Source of the DNA: a virus
Strand: one strand, 5' to 3'
DNA: 25,329 nucleotides
IMG/VR virus record: IMGVR_UViG_3300028829_004488
Location: 1-25,329 of that record
The notes under the pieces were generated by a model, which saw nothing but the letters and a program-made list of their open reading frames with translations, did not search any database and was not told the origin of the DNA. How positions within the stretch are numbered: the first letter of the stretch is position 1; every line of letters starts with the position of its first letter. This document shows positions 1 to 25,329 of this stretch, piece by piece. Position numbers and translations under genes: made by a program.

Positions 1-2
1 AT

Positions 3-47
3 TTAAAAAGAGTAATAAAGTCAGTAAAAACATTTTTTAATAAATGA
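3..47 (+). CDS. Possible 3' end of an upstream gene (partial)
   Basis: Two frames are open from the left edge and stop just before or over the next start codon. One reads LKRVIKSVKTFFNK and ends with a TGA that overlaps the ATG at 44 (ATGA). The other reads FKKSNKVSKNIF and ends with a TAA at 38-40. Both look like the lysine-rich C-termini of other genes here. Tight packing elsewhere in the window makes an upstream gene tail likely, but I cannot choose the frame or the product. Confidence 0.3.
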   Translation, partial: LKRVIKSVKTFFNK

Positions 48-940
48 TAAATTTTGAAGAGTATAGATTATTAGAATCTTATATAGGTTCTAAAAATTTT
101 GAAATTTTGTTGGAGAAAAATCTTTCTAATAAAATTGATAACAAAATAAAATTCGGTATAGTAATGCCTACTCATAAAATATCTGATGGTGGTGCTCAGA
201 CAACTAGACAAAATCACATGACTACACCTAGTATATTAAAAGATTCTTTAACATCAATAAAAAATCAAAAGTATGATAATTATACGGTTTACTTAGTAGG
301 TGATAAATATGATGGTGATGAAGAGATAAAGGAAGTAATGAATAGTATTATCCCAAAGGGTAAATTAAAATATCATAACCTGTCATCACCTGGTGAAAGA
401 GATAAAGGTTTTACAAAGCAACAATTTAGATATACTGCAGGTTGCGGTGCAATGAATAAAGGTTTGCAAATGGCTAAGTCAGATGGGTGTGATTATATTG
501 TTAGAATTGACCATGATGATAAGTGGACTCCTAATCACTTAGAGCTTTTAGCAAAAGCATACACACAATATCCTGAATTGGCATATGTATTCACAAGAAG
601 CCGTAAAAAGATAGACGCAACAAATAGCTCTAAGAAATATATGTACCAACCTAGGGACGAAAGGCATACTAATCTAATAGAACCAAATAATCTTGGTTAT
701 ACTCATGGTGATGTTAGTCACTCTGCAGTTTCATGGAGACCTTCTATGTGTGGTGATTTAAGATATCGTGATGCCGACGCGCAATGTAATACCGAACCTA
801 AAATATCTAAAGAAAAAACTAACCCAGCTGATGTTGACATGTTTAACAGAATGATGAAGGTTATAAAAGATAAAGGTCATAAGTATATGTACGTACCAAA
901 ACTAACAAGTTTCTATAGAAACAGAAAAGGTAAATTCTAA
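44..940 (+). CDS. GT-A (family 2-like) glycosyltransferase
   Basis: Probable cytoplasmic glycosyltransferase that moves a sugar from a nucleotide donor to an unknown acceptor. The GT-A/GT2 pattern is visible: a beta strand KFGIVMPTH near residues 36-44 opens the nucleotide-binding fold, the region around 66-90 (SLTSIKNQKYDNYTVYLVGD) resembles the usual S-L-x-Q-x-Y segment, and YIVRIDHDDKW (151-161) holds the metal-binding DxD-type DHDD. No signal peptide or membrane segment is seen, and the 298-residue length suits a single-domain enzyme. The N-terminal 35 residues and a polar insertion at 46-62 are not part of the usual core. It lies upstream of the sugar operon but is separated from it by the Hc1-like gene and a terminator. 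The family is fairly secure; donor and acceptor are unknown. Confidence 0.75.
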   Translation: MINFEEYRLLESYIGSKNFEILLEKNLSNKIDNKIKFGIVMPTHKISDGGAQTTRQNHMTTPSILKDSLTSIKNQKYDNYTVYLVGDKYDGDEEIKEVMNSIIPKGKLKYHNLSSPGERDKGFTKQQFRYTAGCGAMNKGLQMAKSDGCDYIVRIDHDDKWTPNHLELLAKAYTQYPELAYVFTRSRKKIDATNSSKKYMYQPRDERHTNLIEPNNLGYTHGDVSHSAVSWRPSMCGDLRYRDADAQCNTEPKISKEKTNPADVDMFNRMMKVIKDKGHKYMYVPKLTSFYRNRKGKF

Positions 941-946
941 TGAATA

Positions 947-964
947 TATATAAAAACAATAAAA
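947..964 (+). promoter_or_regulatory. Candidate late promoter / A-rich leader for the Hc1-like gene
   Basis: TATATAAAAACAATAAAA begins 28 nt before the ATG at 975. It is one of about ten similar motifs placed at nearly the same distance before genes in this window, and it resembles the T4 late promoter TATAAATA. No Shine-Dalgarno sequence lies between it and the start. Confidence 0.45.
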
Positions 965-974
965 AATAACTATT

Positions 975-1151
975 ATGGAAAAATTTGAAGAAATCAAGGC
1001 TCTTATCGAGTCAGTAAGTGAAGATGTAGATAAATTCTATGTAAAGGGAAATAAGGCAGCCGCCGTAAGAATTAGAAAATCAATGCAAGAAGTTAAAAAT
1101 CTAGCACAAGAACTAAGATTACACGTCCAAGAGACTAAGAACAATATGTAA
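975..1151 (+). CDS. Histone H1-like protein of the Hc1 family (58 aa)
   Basis: Small helical nucleoid-associated-like protein. Its 58 residues follow the pattern of the short Hc1/histone H1-like proteins common in Bacteroidota: an MEKFEEIKALIES start, then DKFYVKGNKAAAVRIRKSM (residues 19-37), then QEVKNLAQELR (38-48). The second helix carries the basic residues expected to contact DNA. The usual Gly in KAAG-R is Ala here. Codons are clean with no frame ambiguity. The gene is monocistronic: a promoter-like motif precedes it and a strong hairpin terminator follows within about 20 nt, unlike the packed operons around it. By analogy it should bind or compact DNA, either phage or host. The family call is from memory of the sequence pattern; the role in the phage is inference. 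Confidence 0.8.
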   Translation: MEKFEEIKALIESVSEDVDKFYVKGNKAAAVRIRKSMQEVKNLAQELRLHVQETKNNM

Positions 1152-1170
1152 TCATACATAATCTTTTTTA

Positions 1171-1203
1171 AAAAAGACTATCTTTAATTAGATGGTCTTT
1201 TTT
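1171..1203 (+). terminator. Rho-independent terminator after the Hc1-like gene
   Basis: AAAAAGACTATC, an 8-nt loop, then GATGGTCTTTTT form a 12-bp stem with one G-T pair, followed by a short T run. It closes the Hc1-like transcript just before the promoter motif of the sugar operon. Confidence 0.85.
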
Positions 1204-1248
1204 GTTTGTATAATGCCCGGTTATACTTGAAACTTTTTTAAAAACTTC

Positions 1249-1263
1249 TATATAATAATAAAT
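1249..1263 (+). promoter_or_regulatory. Candidate promoter of the sugar/modification operon
   Basis: TATATAATAATAAAT starts 27 nt before the ATG at 1276 and lies directly downstream of a terminator. The same 14-base core recurs before uvsX (11459) and before the gp55 gene (21336). Confidence 0.6.
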
Positions 1264-1275
1264 CAGTTAAATTAT

Positions 1276-1827
1276 ATGGAACGTTGCTTAATATTAGATT
1301 TTGATGATACTTTAGTTTCAACTATAGATACTCATGCAAATTCATGGAAACTTGCTATAGAAAGAGTATTGAATAGGGATATACCTATTGAAACAATAAT
1401 GTCTGATATTAATTACGGAATGGATGTTCTTTTAAAGAAATATCAATTAACTGAAGCTGAGTCCCAATTAGCACAAGATTACAAAAGAGAAATATTTTCA
1501 AAGAATCTTCATAAGACTAAAATAAATCAATTACTTTTGTGGATAATTAAAAATTCTCAATTTGAAAAAGTTATTATAGCATCAAATTCATCTAGAGAAA
1601 ATGTAGATAGAATTATGGCTTATCATAATATAAGTAATGAATTATTTGATATGATTGTAACGAGGGATGATGTTTTAAATAAAAAGCCACACTCAGATAT
1701 GGCAGATTTAATTTTTAAAACATTTCCTAAATATAATCCAGCTGATTTTTTAATGGTTGGTGATTCAGAAGTAGATTCAACATTCGCACTTAAAAACAAA
1801 ATGAAATGCATACTGGTAAAGTTTTAG
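1276..1827 (+). CDS. HAD-superfamily phosphatase
   Basis: Haloacid dehalogenase-type phosphohydrolase, probably acting on a small sugar phosphate. All four HAD motifs are visible: DFDDT at 8-12 (nucleophile D8, acid/base D10), IASNSS at 101-106, the lysine of NKKPHSD at 135-141, and GDSEVD at 162-167 for Mg binding. A helical cap of about 70 residues lies between motifs I and II, as in phosphoglycolate phosphatase or beta-phosphoglucomutase relatives. The length of 183 residues is slightly short for that group. It opens the operon and overlaps the kinase gene by 22 nt. With the kinase and nucleotidyltransferase that follow, it suggests a sugar-activation route, in which it might remove a phosphate from a sugar phosphate. 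The substrate cannot be read from the sequence. Confidence 0.85.
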   Translation: MERCLILDFDDTLVSTIDTHANSWKLAIERVLNRDIPIETIMSDINYGMDVLLKKYQLTEAESQLAQDYKREIFSKNLHKTKINQLLLWIIKNSQFEKVIIASNSSRENVDRIMAYHNISNELFDMIVTRDDVLNKKPHSDMADLIFKTFPKYNPADFLMVGDSEVDSTFALKNKMKCILVKF

Positions 1828-2552
1828 TAGGAAATAGTGGAGATAGGGTATATCTTCAAGATAACAAAGTTATTAAAGAAGCTGGGGTTTATCCTATAAA
1901 GTTTAAGCAGCAAATGGATTGGTTAAAAAATTGTACCCATCCGAATTTTATAAAGATTAATCCTATATCAGATACTTCATTTGAAATGAAAAAATACCCA
2001 ACATGGTATGATAAAATCTGTGAACAGCCTTTAATTAAATCAATTGACCAATTAGATGATCTTATTCATATTGTAAATGATTTTGATGGTTACGGTACTG
2101 ATGTAGATACAAGATCTTATTTAGATAAATTAGAAGGTAGAACAGGTTATACTTATGAAGGTGAATTAGATGCATCGTCAGGCTGGGGGTTTGTTCATGG
2201 TGATTTAACAGTAAGTAATATCTTATATGATAAGGATTTTATTTTTATTGATCCACGAGGTACTGAAGAGCAGAATTATTATGACTATGGAAAACTGATG
2301 CAATCTTTTGTAATGAAATATGAGGCCCATATATACAATGAAAGGAATTCTAAATATCTTAAGTTCTGTAGGGAAGCAGAAAACATAATGTATGAATGGT
2401 ATGACGAATACCAATTAAAATTCTTTTTAGCAGTTCACTTATTAGGAGCTGTTCCATTTTTTGAATTAAATGAAAGATATGAATTGGCAGGTATGTTCCT
2501 TAAGAAAGGGCATGAATTATTCGATGAATTAGAAATTAAATATAGCAAATGA
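1806..2552 (+). CDS. APH/choline-kinase-like small-molecule kinase
   Basis: Kinase of the aminoglycoside phosphotransferase/choline kinase fold, predicted to phosphorylate a small molecule such as a sugar. The catalytic loop FVHGDLTVSNIL (129-140) holds the Brenner motif H-x-D-x(4)-N (H131, D133, N138), and FIDPRG (147-152) holds the metal-binding aspartate D149, followed by DYGKL. The N-terminal GNSGDRVY (9-16) could be the Gly-rich loop, and K24 in VIKEAG may be the ATP lysine. The start overlaps the HAD gene by 22 nt; a later start would lose the Gly-rich loop. The end overlaps the nucleotidyltransferase gene as ATGA, suggesting coupled translation. The DPRG-YDYGKL ending resembles kinases of capsule loci. 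Antibiotic resistance is not suggested by this context. Confidence 0.7.
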   Translation: MHTGKVLVGNSGDRVYLQDNKVIKEAGVYPIKFKQQMDWLKNCTHPNFIKINPISDTSFEMKKYPTWYDKICEQPLIKSIDQLDDLIHIVNDFDGYGTDVDTRSYLDKLEGRTGYTYEGELDASSGWGFVHGDLTVSNILYDKDFIFIDPRGTEEQNYYDYGKLMQSFVMKYEAHIYNERNSKYLKFCREAENIMYEWYDEYQLKFFLAVHLLGAVPFFELNERYELAGMFLKKGHELFDELEIKYSK

Positions 2553-3256
2553 GTAGAGTAAGAAAAGCAATTATCTTAGCAGCCGGGAGGTCTACTAGGT
2601 ATGGATCAAATAAACTTATAGATCCAATTTTAGGAAAATCAACAATTCAGTACTGTATTGAATTTTGTATTGAGAATGGAATAGAGGATGCATATGTTAC
2701 TATAAGTAAATCTGACTTCTTTTTTAAAAATAGAAATACAAAATTATCTCATCCTATTATTGAAAGTTTATCAAAGTATAAAGAAAAGATAAACATTTGT
2801 TATGAATTTCAGAAGGATGATGAATATGGACCAGGCGCTGCAATTAAGGCATGGGAAGGTAAATTTTATGAACCTTTCTTATGTCTCTTTGGTGACAATT
2901 ATTATCAAGGTAATATTGGTTTAGAATACCATGATCCTAATAACACTGTTGTTACTTATAAGGATTATGAAACTAGAGCAAGAAATTTACAACTTGCTAC
3001 TATCCTAGAAGATGTGGTTATTGAAAAACCGCATGGTGTAGTAAGCGGTAGATATTTTTGCGGATATATGATATTTGGTAAAGAGGCATTTGATAACTTA
3101 AGTAGTATTAAATTATCAAACAGAAATGAATATGAAATTACTCATCTTATAAACTCGATGGATAATTTAAAATTTGAAGAATTAAATATATGTTGGTATG
3201 ATTTAACATACGAACAAGATAAACAAGTAATAGAAGATATTATTCAAAATTGTTAA
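2549..3256 (+). CDS. Sugar-1-phosphate nucleotidyltransferase
   Basis: NTP-transferase family enzyme that would join a nucleotide to a sugar 1-phosphate (or similar phosphate ester) to give an activated sugar. The N-terminal signature AIILAAGRSTRYGSNK (7-22) matches the LAAG-x-x-x-R phosphate-binding loop with a following lysine. GPGAAI (94-99) fits the base/sugar-binding segment and CLFGDNYY (112-119) carries the metal-binding aspartate D116. EKPHG (near 155) and the GRYFCGYMIF segment match the sugar-binding half of the fold. The C-terminal hexapeptide-repeat domain of GlmU is absent; 235 residues match single-domain RmlA/MurU/HddC-type enzymes. It overlaps the kinase by 4 nt and is 1 nt from the next gene. 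The nucleotide and sugar specificities are unknown. Confidence 0.85.
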   Translation: MSRVRKAIILAAGRSTRYGSNKLIDPILGKSTIQYCIEFCIENGIEDAYVTISKSDFFFKNRNTKLSHPIIESLSKYKEKINICYEFQKDDEYGPGAAIKAWEGKFYEPFLCLFGDNYYQGNIGLEYHDPNNTVVTYKDYETRARNLQLATILEDVVIEKPHGVVSGRYFCGYMIFGKEAFDNLSSIKLSNRNEYEITHLINSMDNLKFEELNICWYDLTYEQDKQVIEDIIQNC

Positions 3257-3257
3257 T

Positions 3258-4523
3258 ATGAAAGAGAATGTAAAAAAGATTGGTTTTTTTAAATTAGGTA
3301 AAGCCATAAAGTTTAATGAAAACAGTTGGAGCGCAATCGGTGGTGATTGTGAACCTAAGCAATTAATTTGTTCAATTGCAAACAGAAATCCTAATATCGA
3401 ATATTGGCTATTAAGCCCAAATGATTTAGGTAAGTTTAGAGCAAAACAAAAACCTAAAGTAAATTCTTTATTCGGCCCACCGCAAACAGATGAACCTATA
3501 GTTCCTAATAATATTAAAGAATTTCATTCTACTATGAAAGAGAGAAAGTCTACTGATGAAACTGTTGAAATTATTCAAGGTTTAGATTTAGATTTTATTT
3601 TCTTTTATACTGGTCCAACAAGTACTGTTAATATTCCAGAGTATATCAACAAGAAGGATGGTACTGGTCAAGTTAAATCGTTGGATTTCTTTAAGTATTA
3701 TGCAGCTCCAATTATTAAAGCGATGAATGAATTGGAAAAGAAAGTTCCTATTGTAGGTTTACTTGTTGATAACCGATATGTTCTTGCGTGTAAGGATTGG
3801 AGTATAAATAATAGACCAACCTATTACTTAGCACAAAATACATTTACTAAAGAAGAACAATATTTCTGTAATCCACCACTGAGAGATGTTAAAACAATTA
3901 CATCTACATATGAATATTCAGGTATTGAAACAGTATTTCTTTTAGATAAGAAAAGATATGATACTGATGAATTATTTAAAATGAAAAAGACCAATTCATT
4001 TATGATGCTACAGAATCAAGGTAAAGGTTCAGGTGGAATGGATCGTTGGGATCCAGTAAAAGAATACATTGTTGATCAAGAAATAGAAACTGATATCTAT
4101 GGTAAATGGGATGATGAGATTAAAGAAAAGTATCCTAAATGGTTTAAAGGAGAAACTAGAATCGAAACAATGACCGATGAATTACTCGGTACTAAATATA
4201 CATTCTGTGTACCTATTAAAGAAGGTATGGTAACCTCTAAGTATGCTGAAATGCTACACTATGGTATTATACCTTTCTTACACCCATCTTACGATACTGA
4301 CTTTAATGTATTCCCTGAAGGTCATTTTATTAGATGTAAATCAGCAGAAGATTTAAAAAAGAAAATTGAATTCTTAAATGCAAACCCGGAGCATTATAAG
4401 AAATTATTTTATAACCTACAAGAAAAGTATCTTAAGGATTCTTATTATACTGGAGAGCATGTAGATAACAAGATCTGGGAATCTTATGAAAGAGTAACTA
4501 AAACTGAAACCGTAAATGTATAA
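3258..4523 (+). CDS. Putative GT-B-fold glycosyltransferase
   Basis: Probable glycosyltransferase, assigned mainly from the C-terminal half. Residues 312-345 read as TKYTFCVPIKEGMVTSKYAE followed by MLHYGIIPFLHPSYD, like the donor-binding segment of GT-B enzymes, where an acidic residue (E331) precedes a small-residue loop and a buried strand. The tail (about 362-400) is a helical segment that packs back in GT-B folds. The N-terminal half starts with KKIGFFKLGKAIKF and includes a strand-like IEYWLLSP and LDLDFIFFYTG, compatible with a first Rossmann domain. The T4 alpha-glucosyltransferase has a similar length (400 aa) and a loosely similar C-terminal layout, but I see no strong identity. The gene overlaps the epimerase gene by 8 nt. 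Confidence in a glycosyltransferase is moderate; the acceptor is unknown. Confidence 0.5.
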   Translation: MKENVKKIGFFKLGKAIKFNENSWSAIGGDCEPKQLICSIANRNPNIEYWLLSPNDLGKFRAKQKPKVNSLFGPPQTDEPIVPNNIKEFHSTMKERKSTDETVEIIQGLDLDFIFFYTGPTSTVNIPEYINKKDGTGQVKSLDFFKYYAAPIIKAMNELEKKVPIVGLLVDNRYVLACKDWSINNRPTYYLAQNTFTKEEQYFCNPPLRDVKTITSTYEYSGIETVFLLDKKRYDTDELFKMKKTNSFMMLQNQGKGSGGMDRWDPVKEYIVDQEIETDIYGKWDDEIKEKYPKWFKGETRIETMTDELLGTKYTFCVPIKEGMVTSKYAEMLHYGIIPFLHPSYDTDFNVFPEGHFIRCKSAEDLKKKIEFLNANPEHYKKLFYNLQEKYLKDSYYTGEHVDNKIWESYERVTKTETVNV

Positions 4524-5538
4524 TTCTGAAACAAAAATCCTAGTCACCGGTGGTGCTGGGTTCGTTGGTACAAATTTTATCAATGATTTATTAAATAGAG
4601 GACATAATCCTAAATGTATTGCAGTGATCGATAATATGGAACACGGTACTTATATACCTAAAGTCCATGATCAAATTGAAAATTTTCATAAAGTAGATAT
4701 TAGAAATCAATATGTAGAAAACATTATTCAGGATTTTGCACCTGATTATGTTTATCACTTCGCTGGCTTGGTTTCTATTTATGACTGTCATGAAGATCCA
4801 TACGAAGCTGTAGATAATAATATCTTAGGAAGTATTAATGTAATGAATGGTTGTGTAAAGGCAGATGTAAAAAGAATTATCTTTAGTGAAACTTCTGCTG
4901 TATATGAAAATTGTGAAATGCCTAAAGAAGGGTTTAACGAGAATCAATCTGATCCTACTACAATTTATTCTACAACTAAAGCATGCCTTGCCTTATTAGC
5001 AGAATCATACCAGAGAACTAAAGGTTTAAATTATACTGCATTGAGATACTTTAATGTTGCTGGGCCACTTCAAGACTATAATAGAACCATACCTCCTGTA
5101 TTCGCTGGATTTATTTTAAGAATTAAAGGTAATCATAATCCTATAGTGTTTGGTGATTATATGAAGGCAAGAGATTATATTGATGTATCTGATGTTAATG
5201 CATTCCACATTCTTTGTATGGAAAATGAAGATACCGCAAACCAAACCTTTAATTTAGGAACCGGTAAAATGACAAATCTAATGGATCTTAAAAATATGAT
5301 TGGTGATATTATGGGAGTTGGTGAACCTGTGTTTGATCATTACGATCCGATTGCAGGTGAGGCTTTAAATATCAGAGGGGATATCTCCAAAGCTAAATCG
5401 ATGGGATGGGAACCTAAAAAAGATATAAGAGATACTATAAAAGAAACTATTGTTTATCTTGAAGAAGAAATTAATCAAGGTACAATTGACCCTTTAACTT
5501 TTATGGAAGATTTAGAAATTGAAAAAGTAAAAATATAA
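4516..5538 (+). CDS. NAD-dependent sugar epimerase/dehydratase (GalE-like SDR)
   Basis: Extended short-chain dehydrogenase that epimerises or dehydrates a nucleotide sugar in the cytoplasm. The NAD-binding TGGAGFVG is at 11-18, a DIRNQ acidic segment follows at 61-65, HFAGL is at 81-85, the catalytic Ser/Thr region SETSAVY at 124-130, and the YxxxK pair at Y151 and K155. The segment TALRYFNVAGP is the usual GalE-type LRYFNVAG substrate loop. At 340 residues the length is normal for GalE (about 330-340). It likely converts the sugar product of the upstream nucleotidyltransferase, or UDP-glucose/GlcNAc from the host, into the donor used by a neighbouring glycosyltransferase. Which epimer is made cannot be told. 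The next gene starts 1 nt after its stop. Confidence 0.9.
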   Translation: MYNSETKILVTGGAGFVGTNFINDLLNRGHNPKCIAVIDNMEHGTYIPKVHDQIENFHKVDIRNQYVENIIQDFAPDYVYHFAGLVSIYDCHEDPYEAVDNNILGSINVMNGCVKADVKRIIFSETSAVYENCEMPKEGFNENQSDPTTIYSTTKACLALLAESYQRTKGLNYTALRYFNVAGPLQDYNRTIPPVFAGFILRIKGNHNPIVFGDYMKARDYIDVSDVNAFHILCMENEDTANQTFNLGTGKMTNLMDLKNMIGDIMGVGEPVFDHYDPIAGEALNIRGDISKAKSMGWEPKKDIRDTIKETIVYLEEEINQGTIDPLTFMEDLEIEKVKI

Positions 5539-5539
5539 T

Positions 5540-6802
5540 ATGGAAAAAGAATTAAAATGGGGTACTATAATTCCACTGATTGGTGGTAGTGCTATAGGAT
5601 GTAAAAAATCTGCAGGTAACGAACCTGCATTTCATTTAAGTTATGATGCGTTTGCTGCTAATGAAAGTCATATTGAAAAATATTGGCCTGATGTACCTAT
5701 GTATAGGTTAGATCATGAAGATTTAGAAATTCCTAAACAAACCTTTAACGAAGTAGATTATGTAAATTCAGTTTGTCCTTGTGCAGGGTTATCACAATTA
5801 AATTCTGCAAGAGGAACGTCTGCTTCTCGTGGATCTGGTGCTACTCAAAATCAATGGATGTATAATTCATCAGAATATATTTTAGAAAACGTAAAACCTA
5901 AAGTACTTTGGGGTGAGAATGCACCTGGTCTTTTTACTAAGATGGGAGAAGGTGTTGTTGACAGGTTAAGAGAAATAGGCGAAAAATATGGCTATAGTTT
6001 TTCTTTAATTAAAACAAACACCGAGCTTCATGGAATTCCACAAAGAAGAATGAGAACTTTTTATTTCTTTTGGAATACACCAACTGTACCTATGTTAAGT
6101 TGGAAATTCAGAGAAAAGAAATTACTAATTGATTATCTTAATGAAATTCCTAAGGATGCTACACACCAAGATATGTTTATGGTTGAAGGTAAAGTCACAG
6201 ATCATTTTACACCTTATGAATATGTTTTAGAAAAGGAAGGTTTAACTCATGCTGAATTTGCTGCAAAATTTAAAAAAGGAACTATTGCACAGTACTTAGA
6301 AAAAAATGAACTTATTGATGACTGTATTAAATGGTTAGAAAAACATTATCCTAAAAGAGGGTTTTCAAATAAAAAATCTACAAAGACTTTTATTGATATG
6401 TTAGAGCACCAACAATATAAAACAAGTCAAGGATTAGGTTATTGGGATGCATCCCCGCATTTCTTTCACGATTCTTTTTCTGCTCTTATTGGTAGAAATA
6501 TGTTTAATGGTGTACACCCAGTAGAAAACAGATATCTTAATGTTAGAGAAATGCTTCACTTAATGGGACTTCCTTTAGACTTCGGTATTGAAAGCTCAAG
6601 ACAAGTAAATCATATTGCTCAAAATGTACCTGTTACAACTGCTATGGATATGGCTGATGAGGTAAAGAAATTTTGTAAAGGCGAGGCTAAGATGACTAAT
6701 TTTACATTTCTGAAACAAGATAACACAAGTCATAAAATTATTGATTCTGTTGAAATTGGATCAGAACCTAAAAAGAAATATAAAGTAAAAAGTATAATTT
6801 AA
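5540..6802 (+). CDS. DNA cytosine-C5 methyltransferase
   Basis: C5-cytosine DNA methyltransferase using S-adenosylmethionine. Motifs appear in canonical order: a diverged motif I IPLIGGSAIG (11-20), motif IV with the catalytic cysteine VCPCAGLSQLN (P80-C81), motif VI ENAPG (126-130, instead of ENV), motif VIII QRRMR (168-172), a roughly 150-residue target-recognition region, motif IX RYLNVREMLHLMGLP (331-345) and motif X QNVPVTTAMDMADEV (361-375). The acidic residue ending motif II is not obvious. The C-terminal tail after 385 is extra. No restriction endonuclease lies next to it, so it is an orphan modification enzyme. It sits between an epimerase and a GT8-like enzyme in one operon, which raises the possibility of methylcytosine-linked hypermodification; no TET/JBP-like oxygenase is visible in the window. 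The recognition sequence is unknown. Confidence 0.85.
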   Translation: MEKELKWGTIIPLIGGSAIGCKKSAGNEPAFHLSYDAFAANESHIEKYWPDVPMYRLDHEDLEIPKQTFNEVDYVNSVCPCAGLSQLNSARGTSASRGSGATQNQWMYNSSEYILENVKPKVLWGENAPGLFTKMGEGVVDRLREIGEKYGYSFSLIKTNTELHGIPQRRMRTFYFFWNTPTVPMLSWKFREKKLLIDYLNEIPKDATHQDMFMVEGKVTDHFTPYEYVLEKEGLTHAEFAAKFKKGTIAQYLEKNELIDDCIKWLEKHYPKRGFSNKKSTKTFIDMLEHQQYKTSQGLGYWDASPHFFHDSFSALIGRNMFNGVHPVENRYLNVREMLHLMGLPLDFGIESSRQVNHIAQNVPVTTAMDMADEVKKFCKGEAKMTNFTFLKQDNTSHKIIDSVEIGSEPKKKYKVKSII

Positions 6803-6804
6803 TT

Positions 6805-7809
6805 ATGAAAGATAACGCATTAGCAATAGGAATATCTAGTTTAGAGTTTACCAATATCTTATGTAGTTATTATCCTAAAGGGATCAAAGAAAATTTTGAT
6901 ATTTACTTATTTGTTGATAATAATAAAATAGACATAGATAAACTTCAGTGCATTTTTAAAGAGCATGATTTAGATATTTTTATTAATGCTAAAATTATTA
7001 TCTTAAAGGATGTATATGATCATTATATAGAAAAGCATCAATATAAAGGTAATGCAAAAAAGTTTCTATTAAATCATGGTTGTTTATTTAAAATTCTAAT
7101 GCCTATTTATCTAAGAGAAATGTTTGGTGTTAAAAGAACATATGTTTCCGATGATGATGTATTTATCCTAAATGATCTCAGTTATATGTGGACTAAATAT
7201 AAAGAGTTCGGTATTAAGAAGGAAAACTTATTTTACATTAGAAATAAAAATAAGTATGATGTAATGAATGCCTTCAATGAAATATTTGAATCTGATTTTA
7301 CTTTGGATCAAATGAATGGTCTAGCAATAAATGCAGGTAATATTATTTATGACGAAGACCCTAAGTTAGAATATTACTTTGAGCGGTTTATGAAGCACCC
7401 ATTTATTCATCATATGTTTTTTGATTTTACAGGTTATACGAGCTGGACAGTAGAACAGAGGTTTCATCATTTTAATATTCATAGATATTTAGCAGAAGGA
7501 AAGGAAGTTAAATTTTTAGAAAGTAAAGACTTAAGACTAATGCAAAATCTTGATAAAGATATGAAGGCTGGTGAGCCACCTGAAAAATATTTAAAAGAAG
7601 TCGTACCATCCTTAATCCATTATGCAATAGGCACAAAAAAACCTTTATGGTTAAATGATTTTTTACCAGGTCTTAAATGGAGATATGGTTTTGACTATAA
7701 GGCCAAATATGAATTAAAGGATATTCTATATAATAAAGATTGGCGACCACCATCCTTTAAAAGTGTACAGAAAAAACAAACAGCATTAAAAATTAAGTCT
7801 GTATTTTAA
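6805..7809 (+). CDS. GT8-like glycosyltransferase
   Basis: Retaining GT-A glycosyltransferase resembling family 8 (glycogenin/LgtC relatives). YVSDDDVFILNDL (113-125) contains the DxD (D116-D118) after a KILMPIYLREMFGVKR helix, as in GT8. LAINAGNII (173-181) matches the [IF]NAGxx[IL] acceptor/donor motif, and IHYAIGTKKPLW (271-282) matches the C-terminal H-x(2)-G-x-x-KPW metal-binding motif. The size of 334 residues is usual for the family. There is no membrane anchor. It is the last gene of the operon, 2 nt after the methyltransferase stop. The donor is probably a UDP-sugar from family knowledge; the acceptor could be DNA, a virion protein or a host surface glycan and cannot be decided here. 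Confidence 0.8.
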   Translation: MKDNALAIGISSLEFTNILCSYYPKGIKENFDIYLFVDNNKIDIDKLQCIFKEHDLDIFINAKIIILKDVYDHYIEKHQYKGNAKKFLLNHGCLFKILMPIYLREMFGVKRTYVSDDDVFILNDLSYMWTKYKEFGIKKENLFYIRNKNKYDVMNAFNEIFESDFTLDQMNGLAINAGNIIYDEDPKLEYYFERFMKHPFIHHMFFDFTGYTSWTVEQRFHHFNIHRYLAEGKEVKFLESKDLRLMQNLDKDMKAGEPPEKYLKEVVPSLIHYAIGTKKPLWLNDFLPGLKWRYGFDYKAKYELKDILYNKDWRPPSFKSVQKKQTALKIKSVF

Positions 7810-7860: not shown

Positions 7861-8610
7861 ATGGAAACAAAAATTAACAAAATTGACGGTTATGAATTAA
7901 GTTCATTCGTTCGCAAACTACTTCCAATTGACAAATTCATCTTTATGAAAATCGCAAAAGAAGGTACTGTATCTTCTGTATATTTTCCTGAGAGAGATGC
8001 CGTAAAATTGGTTAACACTCCAACTGCTGATATCTTTGATGCTGATATCTCTGAACCTGTAAAGGTAAGCTTTTATAATGGTACTAAAGTTATTGATGCA
8101 TTAAGTCATTTTAATGGTGATGTCCAAGGTCGTATTAAGTATACTGAATATGATGGAGAATTAATGGCAAGTGATTTTATTTTAGAAAATGAAGATCTTC
8201 AAATTAATTTGGCATGTACAGATCCTTCATTATCTTTTATGGAAATGAGCAAGGAAGAAACTGATAGAGCATTCGGTACAGATTCTAAAATGTTTAGTTT
8301 TGATTTACTTACTACTCATGTAGATAAAATGAAATCATTATTTAACTTAGATAAAGATGAAGATATCTTTACTCTTTATATAGGAGAAAAAGGTATTAAT
8401 ATTAAAGGTACTTCTTATGATGCTACTTTATGCCACTCTTATGATTCAGATGTAGAAAAAGGTGCAAAAGTTGTAATTTATAAAAAGTATATTAATCTTT
8501 TAGATAAGGAAAATTACAAAGTAAGCGTTTGTGAAAATAAGGTTGTATTTAAATCTTTAGATACTAATACACATCTTACTGTTGCTGTTGCTATTACTGA
8601 CGAGGATTAA
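7861..8610 (+). CDS. DNA polymerase sliding clamp (gp45-like)
   Basis: Predicted trimeric DNA sliding clamp, the processivity factor for the phage polymerase and, in T4, the mobile activator of late transcription. The 249-residue protein (T4 gp45 is 228) has the layout of that family: an N-terminal helix with FVRKLLPIDKFIFMKI, alternating strands, a VIDALSHF helix matching the FLGILSLV helix of gp45, an ACTDPS segment matching the AADPS of gp45, then a second domain with FTLYIGEKGINIKG and repeated strands. It is rich in acidic residues, as clamps are. Identity to T4 is low, so the call depends on layout and on the neighbouring polymerase gene. A terminator follows, so it is probably transcribed alone or as the end of the upstream operon. 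Confidence 0.7.
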   Translation: METKINKIDGYELSSFVRKLLPIDKFIFMKIAKEGTVSSVYFPERDAVKLVNTPTADIFDADISEPVKVSFYNGTKVIDALSHFNGDVQGRIKYTEYDGELMASDFILENEDLQINLACTDPSLSFMEMSKEETDRAFGTDSKMFSFDLLTTHVDKMKSLFNLDKDEDIFTLYIGEKGINIKGTSYDATLCHSYDSDVEKGAKVVIYKKYINLLDKENYKVSVCENKVVFKSLDTNTHLTVAVAITDED

Positions 8611-8688: not shown

Positions 8689-9807
8689 ATGACAGAGGAA
8701 TTACAAAAAATTAACGAAGAGGCATCTAAGTTTTATAATTATGAACAGGCAGTTAAGTTAATGCTTAACTCTATTTACGGCGCATTTGGTAATCCTTATT
8801 TTTATTTCTTTAATGTTGATATTGCTGAAACTATTACACTCCAAGGTAAAGATGCAATTTTATATACCGAACAATTAGTTAATAAGTATTTTAAAGAGTT
8901 TTGGCATAAAGATCTACCAGCTCACGCTGCTATGGGTATTACTGTAACAGGTAAAATTGAAAAACCAGTAGGTATTTATATTGATACAGATTCAGTGTAT
9001 GTTAAATTTGATGAAGTAATTCAAAAGTCGGAAGGCTGGAACGGTGATGAAAAAGAATTTATACTTAAGCTTTATAAGGTTAGGTTAAATGGTTATATAG
9101 AAAAGATTCTACAAAAATATGCAGACGATAATAATGCAGAAAACTTTTTATCTTTTGAATTAGAAAGTATTGCTAAAAATGCAATATGGTTGGCAAAGAA
9201 AAAGTATATGCAGAATATAGTTTGGAAGGATCCGGATATTCACTATGATGATCTTTCTAAAATTAGTTCAAAAGGATTTGAAATCATTCAGTCATCTACT
9301 CCTATTTTTGCAAGAGAAAAATTAAAAGAACTATTAACTTACATATTTTCTGTAAGTGAATTAGATATGGGAGCATTTGCATCTTTGCTTAAGGATGTTA
9401 AAAGACAATTTAGATTAGCAAATGTTGATCAAATCAGTTTTTCAAGAAAGGTTAATAATTATCAAAAGTATATTGTAAATGATTATGAACAATTTGAGAT
9501 CGCATCAAAATGCCCAATCGGCGTAAGATCTGCAGGTTATCATAATTACTTATTAAACAATTCAGGCAAAAAAGGTAAATACCAACCATTAGGAAACGGG
9601 GAAAAATGTAAAATGTATTTTTCTGAAGATAATTCCTGTGATGTATTTGCATATGCACCTGGAGATTATCCTTATGAATTCGCGCCTAAGATTGATTACG
9701 ATCGACAATTCGAAAAAACAATATTAGATCCTATAAACAGAGTTGTTACTGCTATGGGATTTAAGGGATTCAATAGAAACTTGATTTATACTACAAGTTT
9801 ATTTTAA
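8689..9807 (+). CDS. Family B DNA polymerase, C-terminal half (gp43-like, split)
   Basis: Fingers, part of the palm and the thumb of a T4-type replicative polymerase. Motif B KLMLNSIYGAFGN is at 23-35, motif C YIDTDSVYVKF at 97-107, the KKKY DNA-contact motif at 170-173, QSSTPIFAREKL at 201-212 (T4: QQSSTPKA), and CPIGVRSAGYHNYL matches CPFHIRGVLTYRR of T4. The C-terminal end LIYTTSLF could be a clamp-binding tail like SLDFLFG of T4 gp43. The 372 residues correspond to about the last 365 of the 898 in T4 gp43. The 3'-5' exonuclease domain and motif A (DxxSLYPS, with one catalytic aspartate) are absent, and an in-frame TAA at 8665-8667 blocks extension upstream. The missing part is not in this window. 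There is no sign of an intein end. It is probably the C-terminal subunit of a two-gene polymerase. Confidence 0.9.
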   Translation: MTEELQKINEEASKFYNYEQAVKLMLNSIYGAFGNPYFYFFNVDIAETITLQGKDAILYTEQLVNKYFKEFWHKDLPAHAAMGITVTGKIEKPVGIYIDTDSVYVKFDEVIQKSEGWNGDEKEFILKLYKVRLNGYIEKILQKYADDNNAENFLSFELESIAKNAIWLAKKKYMQNIVWKDPDIHYDDLSKISSKGFEIIQSSTPIFAREKLKELLTYIFSVSELDMGAFASLLKDVKRQFRLANVDQISFSRKVNNYQKYIVNDYEQFEIASKCPIGVRSAGYHNYLLNNSGKKGKYQPLGNGEKCKMYFSEDNSCDVFAYAPGDYPYEFAPKIDYDRQFEKTILDPINRVVTAMGFKGFNRNLIYTTSLF

Positions 9808-11483: not shown

Positions 11484-12680
11484 ATGGCAAAAGAATTTTC
11501 ATTCGCAGATTTAAACAAAGAAATGTCAAAACACTCCACATACGGAGAGACTTTAGACAAATCAACTATTTCAGAAATAGATCATTATATACCAACTGGA
11601 AATTGGCATCTTAATGCTTGCTTAACAGGCTCGCTGTTTGGTGGTTATCCTAATAACAGGGCAGTTGCATTAGCAGGACCCTCCGGTACTGGTAAAACTT
11701 ATCTTATCTTAAATGCAATTAAACAAGCACAGGCACAAGGTTATAGTATTGTATTTTATGATTCTGAAAATGCTGTAGATAAAACTTTAGTAGAAAAGTT
11801 TGGTATTGATCCAACAAAATTTCGTTATGAGCCATGTAATACGGTTCAAGAATTTAGAACTTCGGTAACGGCAATTACCGATGTATTAATCGAACAAAAA
11901 GCAAAAGGTATCGCTCTACCTAAAATTATGGTCGTGCTGGATTCTGCAGGTAACTTAGCAACCCAAAAAGAAATTGATGATGCTAAAACTGGAAGTAGTA
12001 AAGCTGATATGACAAGAGCTAAATTATTAAAATCTACATTCCGAATCATTATGACGCAATTCGGTATATGTAAAATACCTTTCTTATTTACTAATCATAC
12101 TTACCAAACACAAGATCTTTTCTCTAGGCAAGTAGGTGGCGGTGGAACTGGTCCTGAATATGCTGCCTCTATTATTTTATTTTTAGGTAAAGCAAAACTT
12201 AAAGAAGGTATAGAACAAACCGGTATTATTGTTACTGCCAAACCAAATAAAAATAGATTTGCAAAACCTACTAATATTAAATTCCATATTTCTTTTAATA
12301 AAGGTATGAATCCTTATATTGGATTAGAGGAGTATATAAGTTGGGATACATGTGGAGTTGAACGAGGAAGATTTATAAATGAGAATGCATTTAAGAAATT
12401 AACTGATATAGGTAAAGCTGAATGTAGAGAACATTCTTTTGATAAGGATGGTAAAAAGGTTACTATTTATTTTCAACCAGCCGCAACTGCAAGAAAGATA
12501 TGCGTAAAGCATCTTAATGATACTGTAGATCTTAATCAATTATTTACACCAGAAGTAATGACCGAGGGTGTACTGAAGGCATTGGAGCCAATCGTTGCTG
12601 CTAAGTTTAAGTATGGTGAAGAACTTGATGTTGAAAATTTAACCGAAATGCTAGAAGCCGATGTTACCGAAAAATCTTAA
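11484..12680 (+). CDS. uvsX: RecA-like recombinase UvsX
   Basis: Strand-exchange recombinase for recombination-dependent replication and repair. The Walker A loop is AGPSGTGKTY (64-73), a RecA-type FYDSENA (91-97) supplies the catalytic glutamate E95, and Walker B is IMVVLDSAGNL (148-158). SSKADMTRAKLLKSTFR and NHTYQT with GGGGTGPEYAASIILFL fit the L1/L2 and core strands of the UvsX family. At 398 residues it is close to T4 UvsX (391). The C-terminal 60 residues are acidic (ELDVENLTEMLEADVTEKS), which could modulate filament formation as in RecA. The gene overlaps the next ORF by 20 nt. In T4, uvsX is followed by genes 40 and 41; here the helicase follows after two inserted genes. Confidence 0.92.
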   Translation: MAKEFSFADLNKEMSKHSTYGETLDKSTISEIDHYIPTGNWHLNACLTGSLFGGYPNNRAVALAGPSGTGKTYLILNAIKQAQAQGYSIVFYDSENAVDKTLVEKFGIDPTKFRYEPCNTVQEFRTSVTAITDVLIEQKAKGIALPKIMVVLDSAGNLATQKEIDDAKTGSSKADMTRAKLLKSTFRIIMTQFGICKIPFLFTNHTYQTQDLFSRQVGGGGTGPEYAASIILFLGKAKLKEGIEQTGIIVTAKPNKNRFAKPTNIKFHISFNKGMNPYIGLEEYISWDTCGVERGRFINENAFKKLTDIGKAECREHSFDKDGKKVTIYFQPAATARKICVKHLNDTVDLNQLFTPEVMTEGVLKALEPIVAAKFKYGEELDVENLTEMLEADVTEKS

Positions 12681-12960
12681 TACTGCAAAACTTAAAGTAA
12701 AGCATGTATTAGGAAATCATACAACATTACCAACTTACCCAGACGCTGAAGATATTACGTATGAACTGATACGAGATTATTGTGGTAAAGTAGCAAAGGA
12801 AATTAAATTTACTAATGTATCTTTACAGAAAAAGTACAGCCTTACTGATGAAAAGGTTAATGAAATTTTAATGACTCTTAAAAAGAAAAAGATTATTAAA
12901 GTATCATTATCTAATTCTGCATATACTACATACGAAATTATTACAAATCCATATGAATAA
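12661..12960 (+). CDS. Small protein with possible winged helix-turn-helix
   Basis: I do not recognise a specific family. The 99 residues are basic at the N-terminus (NTAKLKVKHVLG). The part from about 27 to 92 has a winged-helix appearance: helix ITYELIRDYCGKVAKEI, then VSLQKKYSLTDEKVNEIL (a helix-turn-helix-like pair), then LKKKKIIKVSLSNSAYTTYEI as a wing. It could be a small DNA-binding regulator or a recombination accessory factor. It begins inside the end of uvsX (20-nt overlap) and overlaps the next gene by 8 nt, so it is probably co-expressed with both. Its position after uvsX matches T4 gene 40, but I see no sequence basis for that identity. Confidence 0.55.
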   Translation: MLPKNLNTAKLKVKHVLGNHTTLPTYPDAEDITYELIRDYCGKVAKEIKFTNVSLQKKYSLTDEKVNEILMTLKKKKIIKVSLSNSAYTTYEIITNPYE

Positions 12961-19268: not shown

Positions 19269-19288
19269 TTAACTCTAAGATCCTAGAA

Positions 19289-19303
19289 TATATAAAACAA
19301 ATC
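19289..19303 (+). promoter_or_regulatory. Candidate promoter of the 654-residue protein gene
   Basis: TATATAAAACAAATC starts 27 nt before the ATG at 19316, the standard spacing for this motif in the window. Confidence 0.45.
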
Positions 19304-19315
19304 AAATTCTATAAT

Positions 19316-21280
19316 ATGGAAAAAGTTATTAAAGAAGGCCAAACTCAGGTTTACATGGATGGTGGAATTGACCGCCAATATGGAGTTAATACTGACGCAC
19401 CTTACCTTAACGCCCCTAATCAACAATTATTAGATATAGTTGGTGTATTATTTGCACAGAGCGGTAAAACAAAATTAGACGGTAAAAACGGAAAGGTGGT
19501 TAATGAAGGACCTATGACAGACTCACAGGTACTTTCTATTTTAGTCGGAATGGGAATTCCCCAACAATTAGGTATGAGTGCTATAAATGCCTTTAAAGGA
19601 AACAACATAACAGAAAATAATAAACAAAAAAATCATAACGAAATGAAATTTACAATTGCTGAACTGCACGAAAATGTTATGAAGAGCATTGATGCACTAA
19701 AAGAAATGAATTCGGATAATTCCAGAACTTCTTATACTGCTAAGAATGCCCTTGACATTTTAGAAGAATCTCTAAAGGCATTCCCGATGAGATTTAAGAA
19801 CGAAGAAACCAAAGTAATTAGCGAAGAAATAGAAAACAGTGTTAATCCTATGCTTAAGTTTAACATTGCTAAAAATCTTCATAGAAACTTAGCTTCTTCT
19901 GATTGGTTAAATCCAATTAACGAATTAAGATCTTATATCACAGGAGCTTATAACGATGCTAAATGGTCTTTCAGAATATCTGAAGCTGTTTCTAGAACAC
20001 AATCACAAAAAGGTAAAATGTATGAAAGTTTAGTAACTGACTTAGAAGGTTTACTAACAGAATCATCTGATACTATTAAATCTAAGTTTTCTGCAATTGC
20101 TGCAAAGAACCCATGGTCAATGGATTGTAAAGCTATTCTAAATGAAATGAAGGCAGATGATAACAAAGCTACTGCAAATGGAGGTGGAACAATTTCTACT
20201 ATCCTTTCACCGGTTTTAGAATCTGAAAATGGATTAACATTCCACTTACATGGAAAAAACTATAACTTTAATGGAAAGACAATTACTGAAACTGAAGTTA
20301 AAGATTCAAGATTCTTTGATGTATTGGAAGGTCTAGGAATGTTTAAAAACATGAACGGTACTTTGGTTACTTTCGGAGAAGGTAATAATAAAACGTTAGA
20401 ATACAATTTATCTGAAGGTACATTAAAATTAGGAAATACTGATTTATCAAATGTAAGCATCATTGAATTAAAAGAATCTTTAATGGCTCTTAATTTCTTT
20501 GGTTACAGAAATCAATGGAAAATTGATAATGTATGTAAGTTTTTTGAATCTATTGATCTTCTTGCCGAAATGGATAATTTTACAAACATTACCTCAACTG
20601 AGTTTACTAATCTATTTTTAACTATGATAGGGGTTCAGGAAGGTATCTATGTAAATAAAGTTAATTCAGGAATGCATGTTAATGAAATGGTATTTGTACC
20701 TTCTGCAACTGAGGCTGTAAAATTAGTAAAAGAATTTATTAATTATGATGCTACTCCAATTCTTTCAGAAAGATTAATTGCTGAAAATGATGAAGCTGCT
20801 AAAATTGAAAAATCACGATCTGACATTTCAGATAAAATATCATTCTTAGAAGAAAAGAAAGCAAAAGTAAAAGATGCTATTGATAAGCTTGGTGAAACTG
20901 AAGAACTCACAGAAGCAATGAATTTACTAGAAGAAGAAATTTCTAAATTTGAAAAATCATTACAAGAAACTTATGACAGAGTTGTATTAGGTGGAAATAA
21001 AGGTGATAAATCTAAAACTCATGACGGTGAAGATTTTGAAGATGATGATGAAAAGGATGAATCAGTAACAGAAAAAAAAAGTCGTAACGATTATTTAAAC
21101 GACGGTTTTGTAGAAGCTGAAATTAACAAGAACGGTAATGGTCTTAAAAAAGGTATGGAAGTTATGGTAAGTGCTGAAGATTATACTTCATTAGGCGATA
21201 AAGATCAATTAGAATGTATTGATCCTAAAACTGGAAAAACTACTATCTGTCCAAAAAGCCAACTCAACGTTAAGATTTAA
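19316..21280 (+). CDS. Unknown large protein, probably virion-associated
   Basis: I do not recognise a family. The 654-residue protein has an N-terminal domain (1-95), a polar Asn/Lys linker, a largely helical middle, a predicted coiled coil at about 490-558 (ISFLEEKKAKVKDAIDKLGE and onward), an acidic stretch at about 570-585 (EDFEDDDEKDES), and a small C-terminal beta-type domain (about 605-654, GLKKGMEVMVSAEDY and CIDPKTGKTTICP). There is no signal peptide or membrane segment. An internal ATG at 19642 in the same frame, after the linker, could be a second start. Its own promoter-like motif, following terminator and place between a gp15-like gene and the late sigma factor suggest an abundant late protein, perhaps structural or a core/internal head protein. 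That is inference from position. Confidence 0.75.
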   Translation: MEKVIKEGQTQVYMDGGIDRQYGVNTDAPYLNAPNQQLLDIVGVLFAQSGKTKLDGKNGKVVNEGPMTDSQVLSILVGMGIPQQLGMSAINAFKGNNITENNKQKNHNEMKFTIAELHENVMKSIDALKEMNSDNSRTSYTAKNALDILEESLKAFPMRFKNEETKVISEEIENSVNPMLKFNIAKNLHRNLASSDWLNPINELRSYITGAYNDAKWSFRISEAVSRTQSQKGKMYESLVTDLEGLLTESSDTIKSKFSAIAAKNPWSMDCKAILNEMKADDNKATANGGGTISTILSPVLESENGLTFHLHGKNYNFNGKTITETEVKDSRFFDVLEGLGMFKNMNGTLVTFGEGNNKTLEYNLSEGTLKLGNTDLSNVSIIELKESLMALNFFGYRNQWKIDNVCKFFESIDLLAEMDNFTNITSTEFTNLFLTMIGVQEGIYVNKVNSGMHVNEMVFVPSATEAVKLVKEFINYDATPILSERLIAENDEAAKIEKSRSDISDKISFLEEKKAKVKDAIDKLGETEELTEAMNLLEEEISKFEKSLQETYDRVVLGGNKGDKSKTHDGEDFEDDDEKDESVTEKKSRNDYLNDGFVEAEINKNGNGLKKGMEVMVSAEDYTSLGDKDQLECIDPKTGKTTICPKSQLNVKI

Positions 21281-21363: not shown

Positions 21364-21729
21364 ATGGCAAGAAAAAGAAATTATCTAAATAATAGAGATC
21401 TTTTAGAACAAATAATATTATCCAAAGAACAAGATGAGCTCACCCCAAAGGCATTAGAATTTTTAATGTTATTAGCAGACAAATGTTCTAGGAAATTATC
21501 ATACGCAAATCCAGACGATAGACAAGACTGTATAGCATCTGCTTATATGGACTTATTTAAATATTGGAGAAACTTTAATCCAGAAAAATCAACTAATGCC
21601 TTCGCTTATTTTACTGAAATATGTAAAAGAGGATTTGCAAAAGGTTGGAATAAATTACATCCTAGGAAATACGCTGGTACTGTATCAATTAATGGTAGCG
21701 CTGATAGCGACGGTATTTATACAATATAA
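21364..21729 (+). CDS. Late-transcription sigma factor (gp55-like)
   Basis: Phage sigma factor that directs host RNA polymerase to late promoters, working in T4 with the sliding clamp and gp33. The region NPDDRQDCIASAYMDLFKYW (49-68), then RNFNPEKSTNAFAYFTEICKR (69-89) and GFAKGWNKLHP (90-100), matches sigma region 2 of the gp55 family, including the aromatic-rich promoter-melting part. At 121 residues it is shorter than T4 gp55 (185). Region 4 is absent, as in gp55. The short tail (SADSDGIYTI) could be the clamp contact but shows no clear motif. It starts its own transcription unit, followed after 7 nt by gp4. Confidence 0.88.
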   Translation: MARKRNYLNNRDLLEQIILSKEQDELTPKALEFLMLLADKCSRKLSYANPDDRQDCIASAYMDLFKYWRNFNPEKSTNAFAYFTEICKRGFAKGWNKLHPRKYAGTVSINGSADSDGIYTI

Positions 21730-22216: not shown

Positions 22217-22791
22217 TGGCTATAGTAGGATCATTTCAAATAGATTTAGATATTTATCTTAAAGAAAATAAAGGTAGATCAGGGGCATCTAAGCAATCGG
22301 ATTCTTCATTATCTACGATTGGTGATAAAGCTAGAGGTGATCTTGAAAATGGTAAGATGTATTCTTTTGAATATTTTACACCTGAAGAAACTTTTTATGA
22401 TACCTATCCTATAGTATTAGGTTTAGGTAAAAGTATAGATAATCATCAGCTAGGATTAAATCTTCACTATATTCCATATGAAGCAAGAATACCTTTTTTA
22501 TCTGATGTATATAGATCATTTAAAGATACTATACTAAGAGAGACAAACACCGCACCTGGAAATCCTAATAGACAATCTAGGTTAAATGAATTTACATATG
22601 ATAATTTAAAACAATCATTAGGTAGAAAATACAATATAACATATGCCATTAGGCAATATAGAATAGATAGAATAAGAAAACCCAGAGTGATGAGTTATGC
22701 TGATTGGTACATAGGTGCTGTAAATAACGAAAATCATTTCTTTGGTGGAAATATTAATGATGCACAAGCATTATATTATAAGAATATATAA
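22216..22791 (+). CDS. Probable virion protein of unknown role
   Basis: I do not recognise a named T4 counterpart. The 191-residue protein has a polar, probably flexible N-terminus (15-45), then KMYSFEYFTPEETFYDTYPIVLGL and GLNLHYIPYEARIPFLSDVY, a pattern (YYD-x-x-P, GLNLHYL) I associate with structural proteins of marine myoviruses. The C-terminal half is basic and aromatic (ITYAIRQYRIDRIRK, SYADWYIGAV). In T4, gene 4 is followed by baseplate gene 53 (196 aa), so position and length fit gp53, but I see no resemblance to the T4 gp53 sequence. It is coupled to gp4 by a 1-nt overlap and precedes the portal. Confidence 0.5.
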   Translation: MAIVGSFQIDLDIYLKENKGRSGASKQSDSSLSTIGDKARGDLENGKMYSFEYFTPEETFYDTYPIVLGLGKSIDNHQLGLNLHYIPYEARIPFLSDVYRSFKDTILRETNTAPGNPNRQSRLNEFTYDNLKQSLGRKYNITYAIRQYRIDRIRKPRVMSYADWYIGAVNNENHFFGGNINDAQALYYKNI

Positions 22792-24386: not shown

Positions 24387-24406
24387 AAAGTTTGCAAACA
24401 TTGTAA

Positions 24407-24420
24407 TATATAAATCAAAT
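24407..24420 (+). promoter_or_regulatory. Candidate promoter of the prohead protease gene
   Basis: TATATAAATCAAAT starts 26 nt before the ATG at 24433 and contains TATAAAT, close to the T4 late consensus TATAAATA. Confidence 0.5.
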
Positions 24421-24432
24421 AACTAATAGAAA

Positions 24433-25329
24433 ATGTCAGGAAAAAAATTATTGATTCTTGAAAGACAGAAATCAAATTTAGATATAACCACCGGTGAAGA
24501 CGGTTCAGTTGTATTAGAAGGTGTATTTACCGAGTTTGATGTTAAGAACAAGAACAACAGGATTTACGAGGAAAAAGAAGTAATGCCTCATATCAATGAA
24601 TTACAAGAAAAGGTTAAAACCAATAAACTTCTAGGTGAATTAGATCACCCTAAAGATTTTGATGTTAGTTTGGCTAATGTCTCTCATGTTGTTGAATCAT
24701 TAGATTATGATAAGACTAAAAAACAAGTTATTGGAAAAATCAGATTACTAAATACCTCTAAAGGTAAAGAAGCACAAGCTCTTATTAAAGATGGTATTCC
24801 TTTACATATTTCAAGTAGAGCTGCTGGTACAGTAGATGAAAATGGTAAAGTTAAAATTAAAAAGTTTTTTACTTATGACTTGGTTGCAGATCCTGGCTTT
24901 GAAAATGCCGAGTTATCAAGAGTAAACGAATCTTTTGGTTTAAGTAATGATGATGGTATATTAATCTATGAAATGGAAGAAACTGAAAATAACGATAATA
25001 AAAAAGATCTAACGATGGAAAATAATAATTTTGTAACTGTTGAAGATTTTCAAAAGTATACTGAATATGTATCTGGTGTTTTAAGTAATGTTAAAGAATC
25101 TACTAATTCTAATAATGATGAGGTAATGGAAAAACTTATTAAATACACTGAGCATATTGCAGAGAAAGTAAATCAGGTTACTGATTATGCTGAATACTTA
25201 TCAGAGAATCTTGATAAAAATATTTCATACTCTGACTATTTAGCAGAGAATGTAAATTCAATTAAAGATTATGCTAGTTATTTAGCTGAAGAGCTTGATG
25301 GTAGTATTCAATATGCTGAGCATGTTGCT
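24433..25329 (+). CDS. Prohead protease (gp21-like) with repeat-rich C-terminal extension, partial
   Basis: Serine protease that matures the prohead by cutting scaffold and capsid proteins. The start is the ATG at 24433; the gene runs off the window with 299 codons seen. The protease part covers about 1-175: VLEGVFTEFDVKNKNNRIY (28-46), GELDHPKDF (68-76) with the catalytic His at 72, and PLHISSRAAG (123-132) with the catalytic Ser at 127 or 128, as in the H-S pair of T4 gp21. FFTYDLVADPGFENAEL follows. T4 gp21 is about 212 residues, so this protein is clearly longer. After an acidic linker (180-198) it has amphipathic 14-residue repeats beginning at 209 and, in register, from 238. The extension may be a fused scaffold (gp22-like) or an autocleaved delivery segment. 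The portal gene lies directly upstream. Confidence 0.88.
   Translation, partial: MSGKKLLILERQKSNLDITTGEDGSVVLEGVFTEFDVKNKNNRIYEEKEVMPHINELQEKVKTNKLLGELDHPKDFDVSLANVSHVVESLDYDKTKKQVIGKIRLLNTSKGKEAQALIKDGIPLHISSRAAGTVDENGKVKIKKFFTYDLVADPGFENAELSRVNESFGLSNDDGILIYEMEETENNDNKKDLTMENNNFVTVEDFQKYTEYVSGVLSNVKESTNSNNDEVMEKLIKYTEHIAEKVNQVTDYAEYLSENLDKNISYSDYLAENVNSIKDYASYLAEELDGSIQYAEHVA
25144..25329 (+). repeat. Tandem 42-bp (14-residue) repeats inside the protease gene
   Basis: Units start with a Tyr codon at 25144, 25186, 25228, 25270 and 25312, exactly 42 nt apart, and continue past the window end. Units read YTEHIAEKVNQVTD, YAEYLSENLDKNIS, YSDYLAENVNSIKD and YASYLAEELDGSIQ. A degenerate earlier unit starts at 25057. 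The DNA sequences of the units differ more than the proteins, so the repeat is kept at protein level. Confidence 0.9.

Follow-up and report, generated by a model that had tools for sequence, protein, structure and literature searches.

The window analysed here, by which we mean the whole stretch of DNA, is a complete virus record of 25,329 bases that is in all likelihood a genome fragment. Its gene set is of the T4 type and includes part of a DNA polymerase, a UvsX-like recombinase, a DnaB-like helicase, and SbcCD-like subunits, together with genes for a late sigma factor, head closure, a DNA end protector, the portal, and the head protease. The gene of interest, hc1, and the features that bear on its expression are the following:

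943–950, + strand: AATATATA box, 32 nt before the hc1 ATG; putative late promoter
975–1151, + strand: hc1 (58 codons and a stop), encoding a 58-residue short Hc1-family protein with a Pfam Hc1 match
1169–1204, + strand: intrinsic-terminator-like hairpin of 15 pairs followed by T, apparently closing the hc1 unit
1227–1256, + strand: sigma-70-like promoter of the next unit (11 of 12 matches), past the terminator
19287–19294, + strand: AATATATA box, 29 nt before an ORF (19316–21280) that has no PHROG match
21364–21729, + strand: gp55-like late sigma factor gene (phrog_234, E 8.7e-16)
22783–22790, + strand: AATATATA box, 29 nt before the portal gene (22812–24386; phrog_213)
24405–24412, + strand: AATATATA box, 28 nt before the head maturation protease gene, which starts at 24433 (phrog_207)

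The first-pass annotation had read the ORF at 975–1151 as an Hc1-family gene and had proposed a Pfam profile search, and this reading held. In particular, the protein matched Pfam Hc1 (PF07432) at 82.1 bits (E 2.6e-23; cut-off 23.5), with residues 1–57 of its 58 aligned to model positions 1–57 of 57. Relatives are encoded at 40 distinct viral loci found in one scan of viral contigs (46–100% identity over the best segment), and hc1 is under purifying selection, dN/dS having a median of 0.098 and a maximum of 0.40 over 189 pairs with dS of 0.1–1.5 (26 distinct 174-nt coding sequences out of 32). Thus, the Pfam match, the viral relatives, and the dN/dS values together rule out a chance ORF. An HctA orthologue was likewise ruled out, since the protein scored 21 bits against the HctA equivalog (NCBIfam NF051889), below its cut-off of 100; judged by these profile scores, the product belongs in Pfam Hc1 and not in HctA. 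Among PHROGs there was no match to the protein better than E 0.098, a search by sequence for relatives of solved structure gave none better than E 0.38, and tblastn for Hc1 in a phage collection matched 3 of 50,697 records, all from uncultured phages. (Note that gene calls in the locus comparisons described below are longest-ORF calls, and that the window's clade refers to 31 loci, namely the window, L002–L030, and L037, which are near relatives whose counts are not independent; the proteins of L002 and L037 are identical to that of the window and possibly come from the same phage.)

An AlphaFold model of the protein is a two-helix hairpin (helices at residues 2–22 and 28–57; mean pLDDT 96.4, pTM 0.75), and the protein would on this model consist of the hairpin domain alone. 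Although near neutral overall (net charge +1, pI 8.0), its charge is distributed unevenly, with a net −5 over residues 1–19, +6 over residues 20–41, and 0 over residues 42–58. The segment from 20 to 41 is basic throughout, at +4 to +7 in the viral set (31 distinct sequences) and +4 to +6 in the bacterial set (101 distinct sequences), and six positions (F21, A29, R32, R34, R48, and K55) do not vary across 25 sequences. The chain stops at residue 58 and so has no C-terminal basic DNA-binding region of the HctA type; nor was a lysine-rich tail present at 69 further viral loci, where 0–7 residues follow the domain. (Some copies are 64–78 residues long, none of them, judged by eye, lysine-rich like HctA.) When the model was used to search the PDB for similar folds, nothing was found at E ≤0.001 (best E 0.36); the matches were ordinary helical hairpins, including the small terminase gp16 of phage 44RR (E 1.1), none of them significant. 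As a separate observation, the top viral fold match was BFVD A0A1V0SJN2 of Klosneuvirus KNV1 (TM 0.92, E 0.006, above the 0.001 mark and not significant), a giant-virus protein of 131 aa with an Hc1-like hairpin and additional length that is 33% identical to the phage Hc1 model over 58 columns.

The AATATATA box has four copies in the window, all on the + strand. It lies upstream of hc1, at a distance of 29–43 nt, in 30 of the 31 clade loci, L028 being the exception; L033, which shares the window's fork of the tree, also lacks it, and counting this locus the figure is 30 of 32. In the seven longer contigs of the clade the box is found upstream of 68 of 652 genes, compared to a mean of 13.67 and a maximum of 24 in 100 shuffles, and 65 of the sites in these 652 upstream regions are 20–36 nt before the start codon. 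The box precedes hc1 and portal or protease homologues in these contigs (in G010, the portal box stands at a short ORF called ahead of the portal). Ten box-bearing genes were scanned; six have no PHROG match and one matches an unknown family, the others being one major head protein (G007, box 85 nt upstream), one tail-tube-like gene, and one homing-endonuclease-like gene. Because the box is common to portal and protease genes, we group hc1 with late virion genes, and the gene is probably transcribed late in infection.

The T4 late promoter consensus is TATAAATA, and T4 late genes combine an AT-rich TATA-type box shortly before the gene with the gp55 sigma factor. The arrangement in the window is similar in that a gp55-like gene is present at 21364–21729 (it has no Pfam match at E 0.001), and its product is a candidate reader of the AATATATA box, which differs from the T4 late consensus. 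As far as the available text of a review of T4 late transcription goes, the T4 late promoter is recognised by gp55, has no upstream element, and has a similar consensus in relatives.

The terminator that the first-pass annotation had placed after hc1 was confirmed, in that the 15-pair hairpin has a folding z-score of −4.71 over 1152–1216 and a terminator-like hairpin lies 3′ of hc1 in 30 of the 31 clade loci (L024 lacks it), the stem sequences varying between loci while the pairing is preserved. Behind it, TTGAAAC or TTAAAAC followed by TATAAT is present in 27 of the 31. With a box upstream, a terminator downstream, and a promoter behind the terminator, hc1 looks like a single-gene unit, apparently one that stands between late and early genes. 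The annotation had also credited hc1 with a promoter-like motif of its own, which, if taken to be of the sigma-70 type, was not found; what stands there instead is the AATATATA box at 943–950. A sigma-70 scan of positions 1–6000 returned 31 promoters, under the shuffled mean of 38.0, and no + strand site in 900–975. A sigma-70 promoter driving hc1 from this interval was thus rejected, the strong site at 1227–1256 lying past the terminator.

Outside the window's clade, AATATATA is upstream of hc1 at only 3 of 69 loci, so the late box cannot be generalised to every phage hc1. Among the huge phages it precedes hc1 in LR745206 (at −29) and LR756502 (at −27), and there is no box before hc1 in LR756500. 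These 3 of 69 loci, together with the absence of the box from LR756500, L028, and L033, count against the reading of hc1 that we favour below, as do, among the ten scanned box-bearing genes, the six without a PHROG match and the one that is homing-endonuclease-like. (In six 50-kb pieces of LR745206.1, L187–L191 and L193, AATATATA favours two distances ahead of starts, about 24–35 nt and, as a second cluster, 12–14 nt.)

The best relatives of the portal in the phage collection are from uncultured huge phages, LR756500 being first at 58.9%; Sphingomonas phage PAU and the Prevotella Lak phages rank lower. Of 296 genomes sampled from the Bacteroidota, the phylum to which the Mucilaginibacter genome G014 belongs, 177 carry PF07432; among 14 control genomes only that of Bacteroides ihuae, itself a Bacteroides, does so. 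On the basis of this distribution a Bacteroidota host is likely, consistent with what had been proposed from the sequence at the outset, and because the gene is so common in Bacteroidota, we infer that the phage hc1 is of host origin. In a tree of 127 rows and 58 columns (identical rows dropped), the window falls within a 23-row viral fork supported at 94/89, and the virus label requires two changes; note that its bootstrap had not settled and that the tree resolves little and gives no direction of transfer. Descent from one host genus is thus not upheld. We also looked for the HU family, because HU might make a second nucleoid protein redundant, and found it in two (LR745206 and LR756502) of the 16 phage records examined, the rest of which are mostly fragments. 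(LR745206.1, of 634 kb, has PF07432 matches at 567427–567558 and 246465–246620, of 61.1 and 26.2 bits, as well as its HU-family gene.)

The short Hc1 of Bacteroidota is of the same length class as the phage protein, matches the profile from end to end, has the same tip residues, and likewise lacks a long lysine-rich tail; the identity between the window protein and bacterial Hc1 reaches 66% among the 80 bacterial loci listed. The two differ in that the window's clade has NKAAAVRIRK where most bacterial copies have AAGTRxRK, and in that hc1 of Sphingobacteriales adjoins ftsZ-like genes whereas phage hc1 adjoins phage genes. The surroundings of bacterial hc1 are conserved: among the 80 bacterial loci listed (L042–L121), 67 have an aminotransferase-like gene upstream, 52 have an FtsZ-like gene, and 36 have an FtsA-like gene, these names being read from the sequences rather than taken from a family search. 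For chlamydial HctA, positions 7–39 of 121 align with window residues 4–37. According to the accessible portion of the chlamydial literature, the DNA-binding region of HctA is placed at its C-terminus, a region that the phage protein and the short bacterial ones lack, and the title of a 1996 paper names a potential N-terminal dimerisation site in chlamydial Hc1.

A second scan, made with the family alignment, found a relative encoded in at least 367 of 598 stretches, from which at least 80 loci were kept. The comparison set outside the core of the window's clade comprised 83 loci, 69 from the second scan (L239 and L240, on the contigs of L034 and L035, and L194–L202, on contigs of first-scan loci, were left out) and 14 from earlier. 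Among the matches listed, a gp32-like SSB gene is upstream of hc1 in 31 of the 83, with a UvsX-like gene also in the stretch in 25 of those 31; an ORF and then a DNA polymerase are downstream in 9; a cytidylyltransferase-like gene is nearby in 17, three of which also have DnaK; and 26 have no searched neighbour near hc1, some or many of these stretches being short. These loci are related, and the counts are not independent. (The SSB, UvsX, and DnaK labels follow Pfam gp32, RecA, and HSP70, the first two also PHROGs; the labels "clamp" and "GT" are our own reading, both ORFs lacking an informative family match.) Judged by where it lies, the ORF before the polymerase (7861–8610 in the window) may be a sliding clamp; an unknown PHROG matches it weakly, and Pfam gave no match. 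Thus, phage relatives of hc1 are often found among replication and recombination genes. The gp32-linked Hc1 proteins are acidic overall, with net charges from −5 to +1 around a median of −1, and retain the basic tip (+2 to +5), as determined for 26 distinct sequences, a set that does not include L251, L214, L220, and L222, which the pattern missed.

That hc1 is real and was assigned to the right family is clear, and phage-borne Hc1 has been known since 2025, because PF07432 was then reported in four complete genomes of moraphages (Perez-Hernandez et al. 2025, PMC12619734), likewise large T4-related phages with predicted Bacteroidota hosts. In the accessible text of that paper, genome compaction during packaging is proposed for the moraphage protein, DnaK is encoded by eight moraphages, and neither a late unit nor a link to gp32 or uvsX is described. 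The three loci with DnaK downstream of hc1 (L206, L209, and L211) probably belong with the moraphages, and their hc1 neighbourhood differs from that of the window's clade, the window being a 25-kb fragment. In the literature searched, which left subscription journals mostly outside its scope, this was the only paper found on PF07432, and we found neither a functional study of tail-less short Hc1 nor a description of a late hc1 unit or of the gp32-hc1-uvsX order.

The reading we favour, at a probability of roughly 0.4, is that hc1 encodes a small architectural protein acting on phage DNA after its replication. The protein would be made from its own transcript late in infection, as the box, the terminator, and the gp55-like sigma factor gene suggest; it would fold into the predicted hairpin, whose first helix is acidic and whose basic tip is conserved; and the hairpin would dimerise, as published work has suggested for the corresponding N-terminal portion of chlamydial Hc1. 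The basic tips of the dimer could then touch or bridge DNA and so organise the replicated DNA of the phage before it is packaged or while packaging proceeds. We regard a histone-like function as plausible and compaction of phage DNA as possible. The near-neutral charge and the absent DNA-binding tail count against this architectural reading, as do the net acidity of the gp32-linked relatives and the replication and recombination neighbourhood in other lineages.

The last two of these points also favour the main rival, which we consider somewhat doubtful, namely that Hc1 is functionally no histone and instead assists phage replication or recombination, perhaps by partnering the gp32-like SSB, UvsX, or the polymerase complex, and that the window's clade has moved it to a late unit of its own. 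The recurrence of gp32, uvsX, and polymerase genes around hc1 gives this idea real weight. However, in the window's clade hc1 is parted from the polymerase by a block of genes and sits in its own unit, the loci with no searched neighbour or with a cytidylyltransferase-like gene instead fit it poorly, the loci are related, and bacterial hc1 has other neighbours. A broader version, which we regard as rather improbable, is that short Hc1 is an unrecognised and widespread replication and recombination accessory in several large-phage lineages (in the orders gp32-hc1-uvsX and hc1-ORF-polymerase), that these proteins are no histones, and that "histone H1-like" misnames the tail-less form generally.

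Two further explanations appear quite unlikely. The presence of the same short protein in so many genomes of the host phylum, up to 66% identical, makes mixed dimers conceivable, such that phage Hc1 might pair with or displace the host's short Hc1 and alter the host nucleoid. The first-pass annotation had suggested that the protein displaces host nucleoid proteins or silences genes, which implies early action; because the upstream box groups hc1 with late virion genes, such an early takeover is disfavoured, and no host function of short Hc1 was found in the literature searched. Less probable still is a small helical-hairpin part in assembly or packaging whose action would not involve DNA, such as a scaffold in head assembly. 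The late-type box and the inclusion of the 44RR small terminase among the non-significant fold matches are consistent with such a part, but matches of this kind arise with any helical hairpin, and the basic tip is kept alike in phages and in bacteria, which build no head.

What makes the locus interesting is the apparent late single-gene unit and the recurring association with genes of replication and recombination, and the gp32/uvsX neighbourhood offers a testable alternative to the histone label. If the role we favour is correct, phages have turned a common Bacteroidota protein to use on their own DNA, and the 58-residue protein would provide a minimal model for the function of the tail-less Hc1 domain.

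The block that, in the window's clade, stands between hc1 and the polymerase region (1276–7809 in the window) contains HAD-hydrolase, kinase-like, sugar-nucleotide, and epimerase genes and a DNA methyltransferase gene (5540–6802); it is absent from L032, L184, and L213 and possibly serves in DNA or virion modification. The DNA polymerase ORF that follows (8689–9807; 372 aa) matches phrog_262 at positions 498–840 of 856, the C-terminal part, and matches phrog_1918, a short family, over nearly its whole length, so the polymerase may be split. Farther downstream, between the UvsX and methyltransferase genes, a 99-aa ORF (12661–12960) scored 25.4 bits against the archaeal MCM winged helix, under the cut-off of 26.1.
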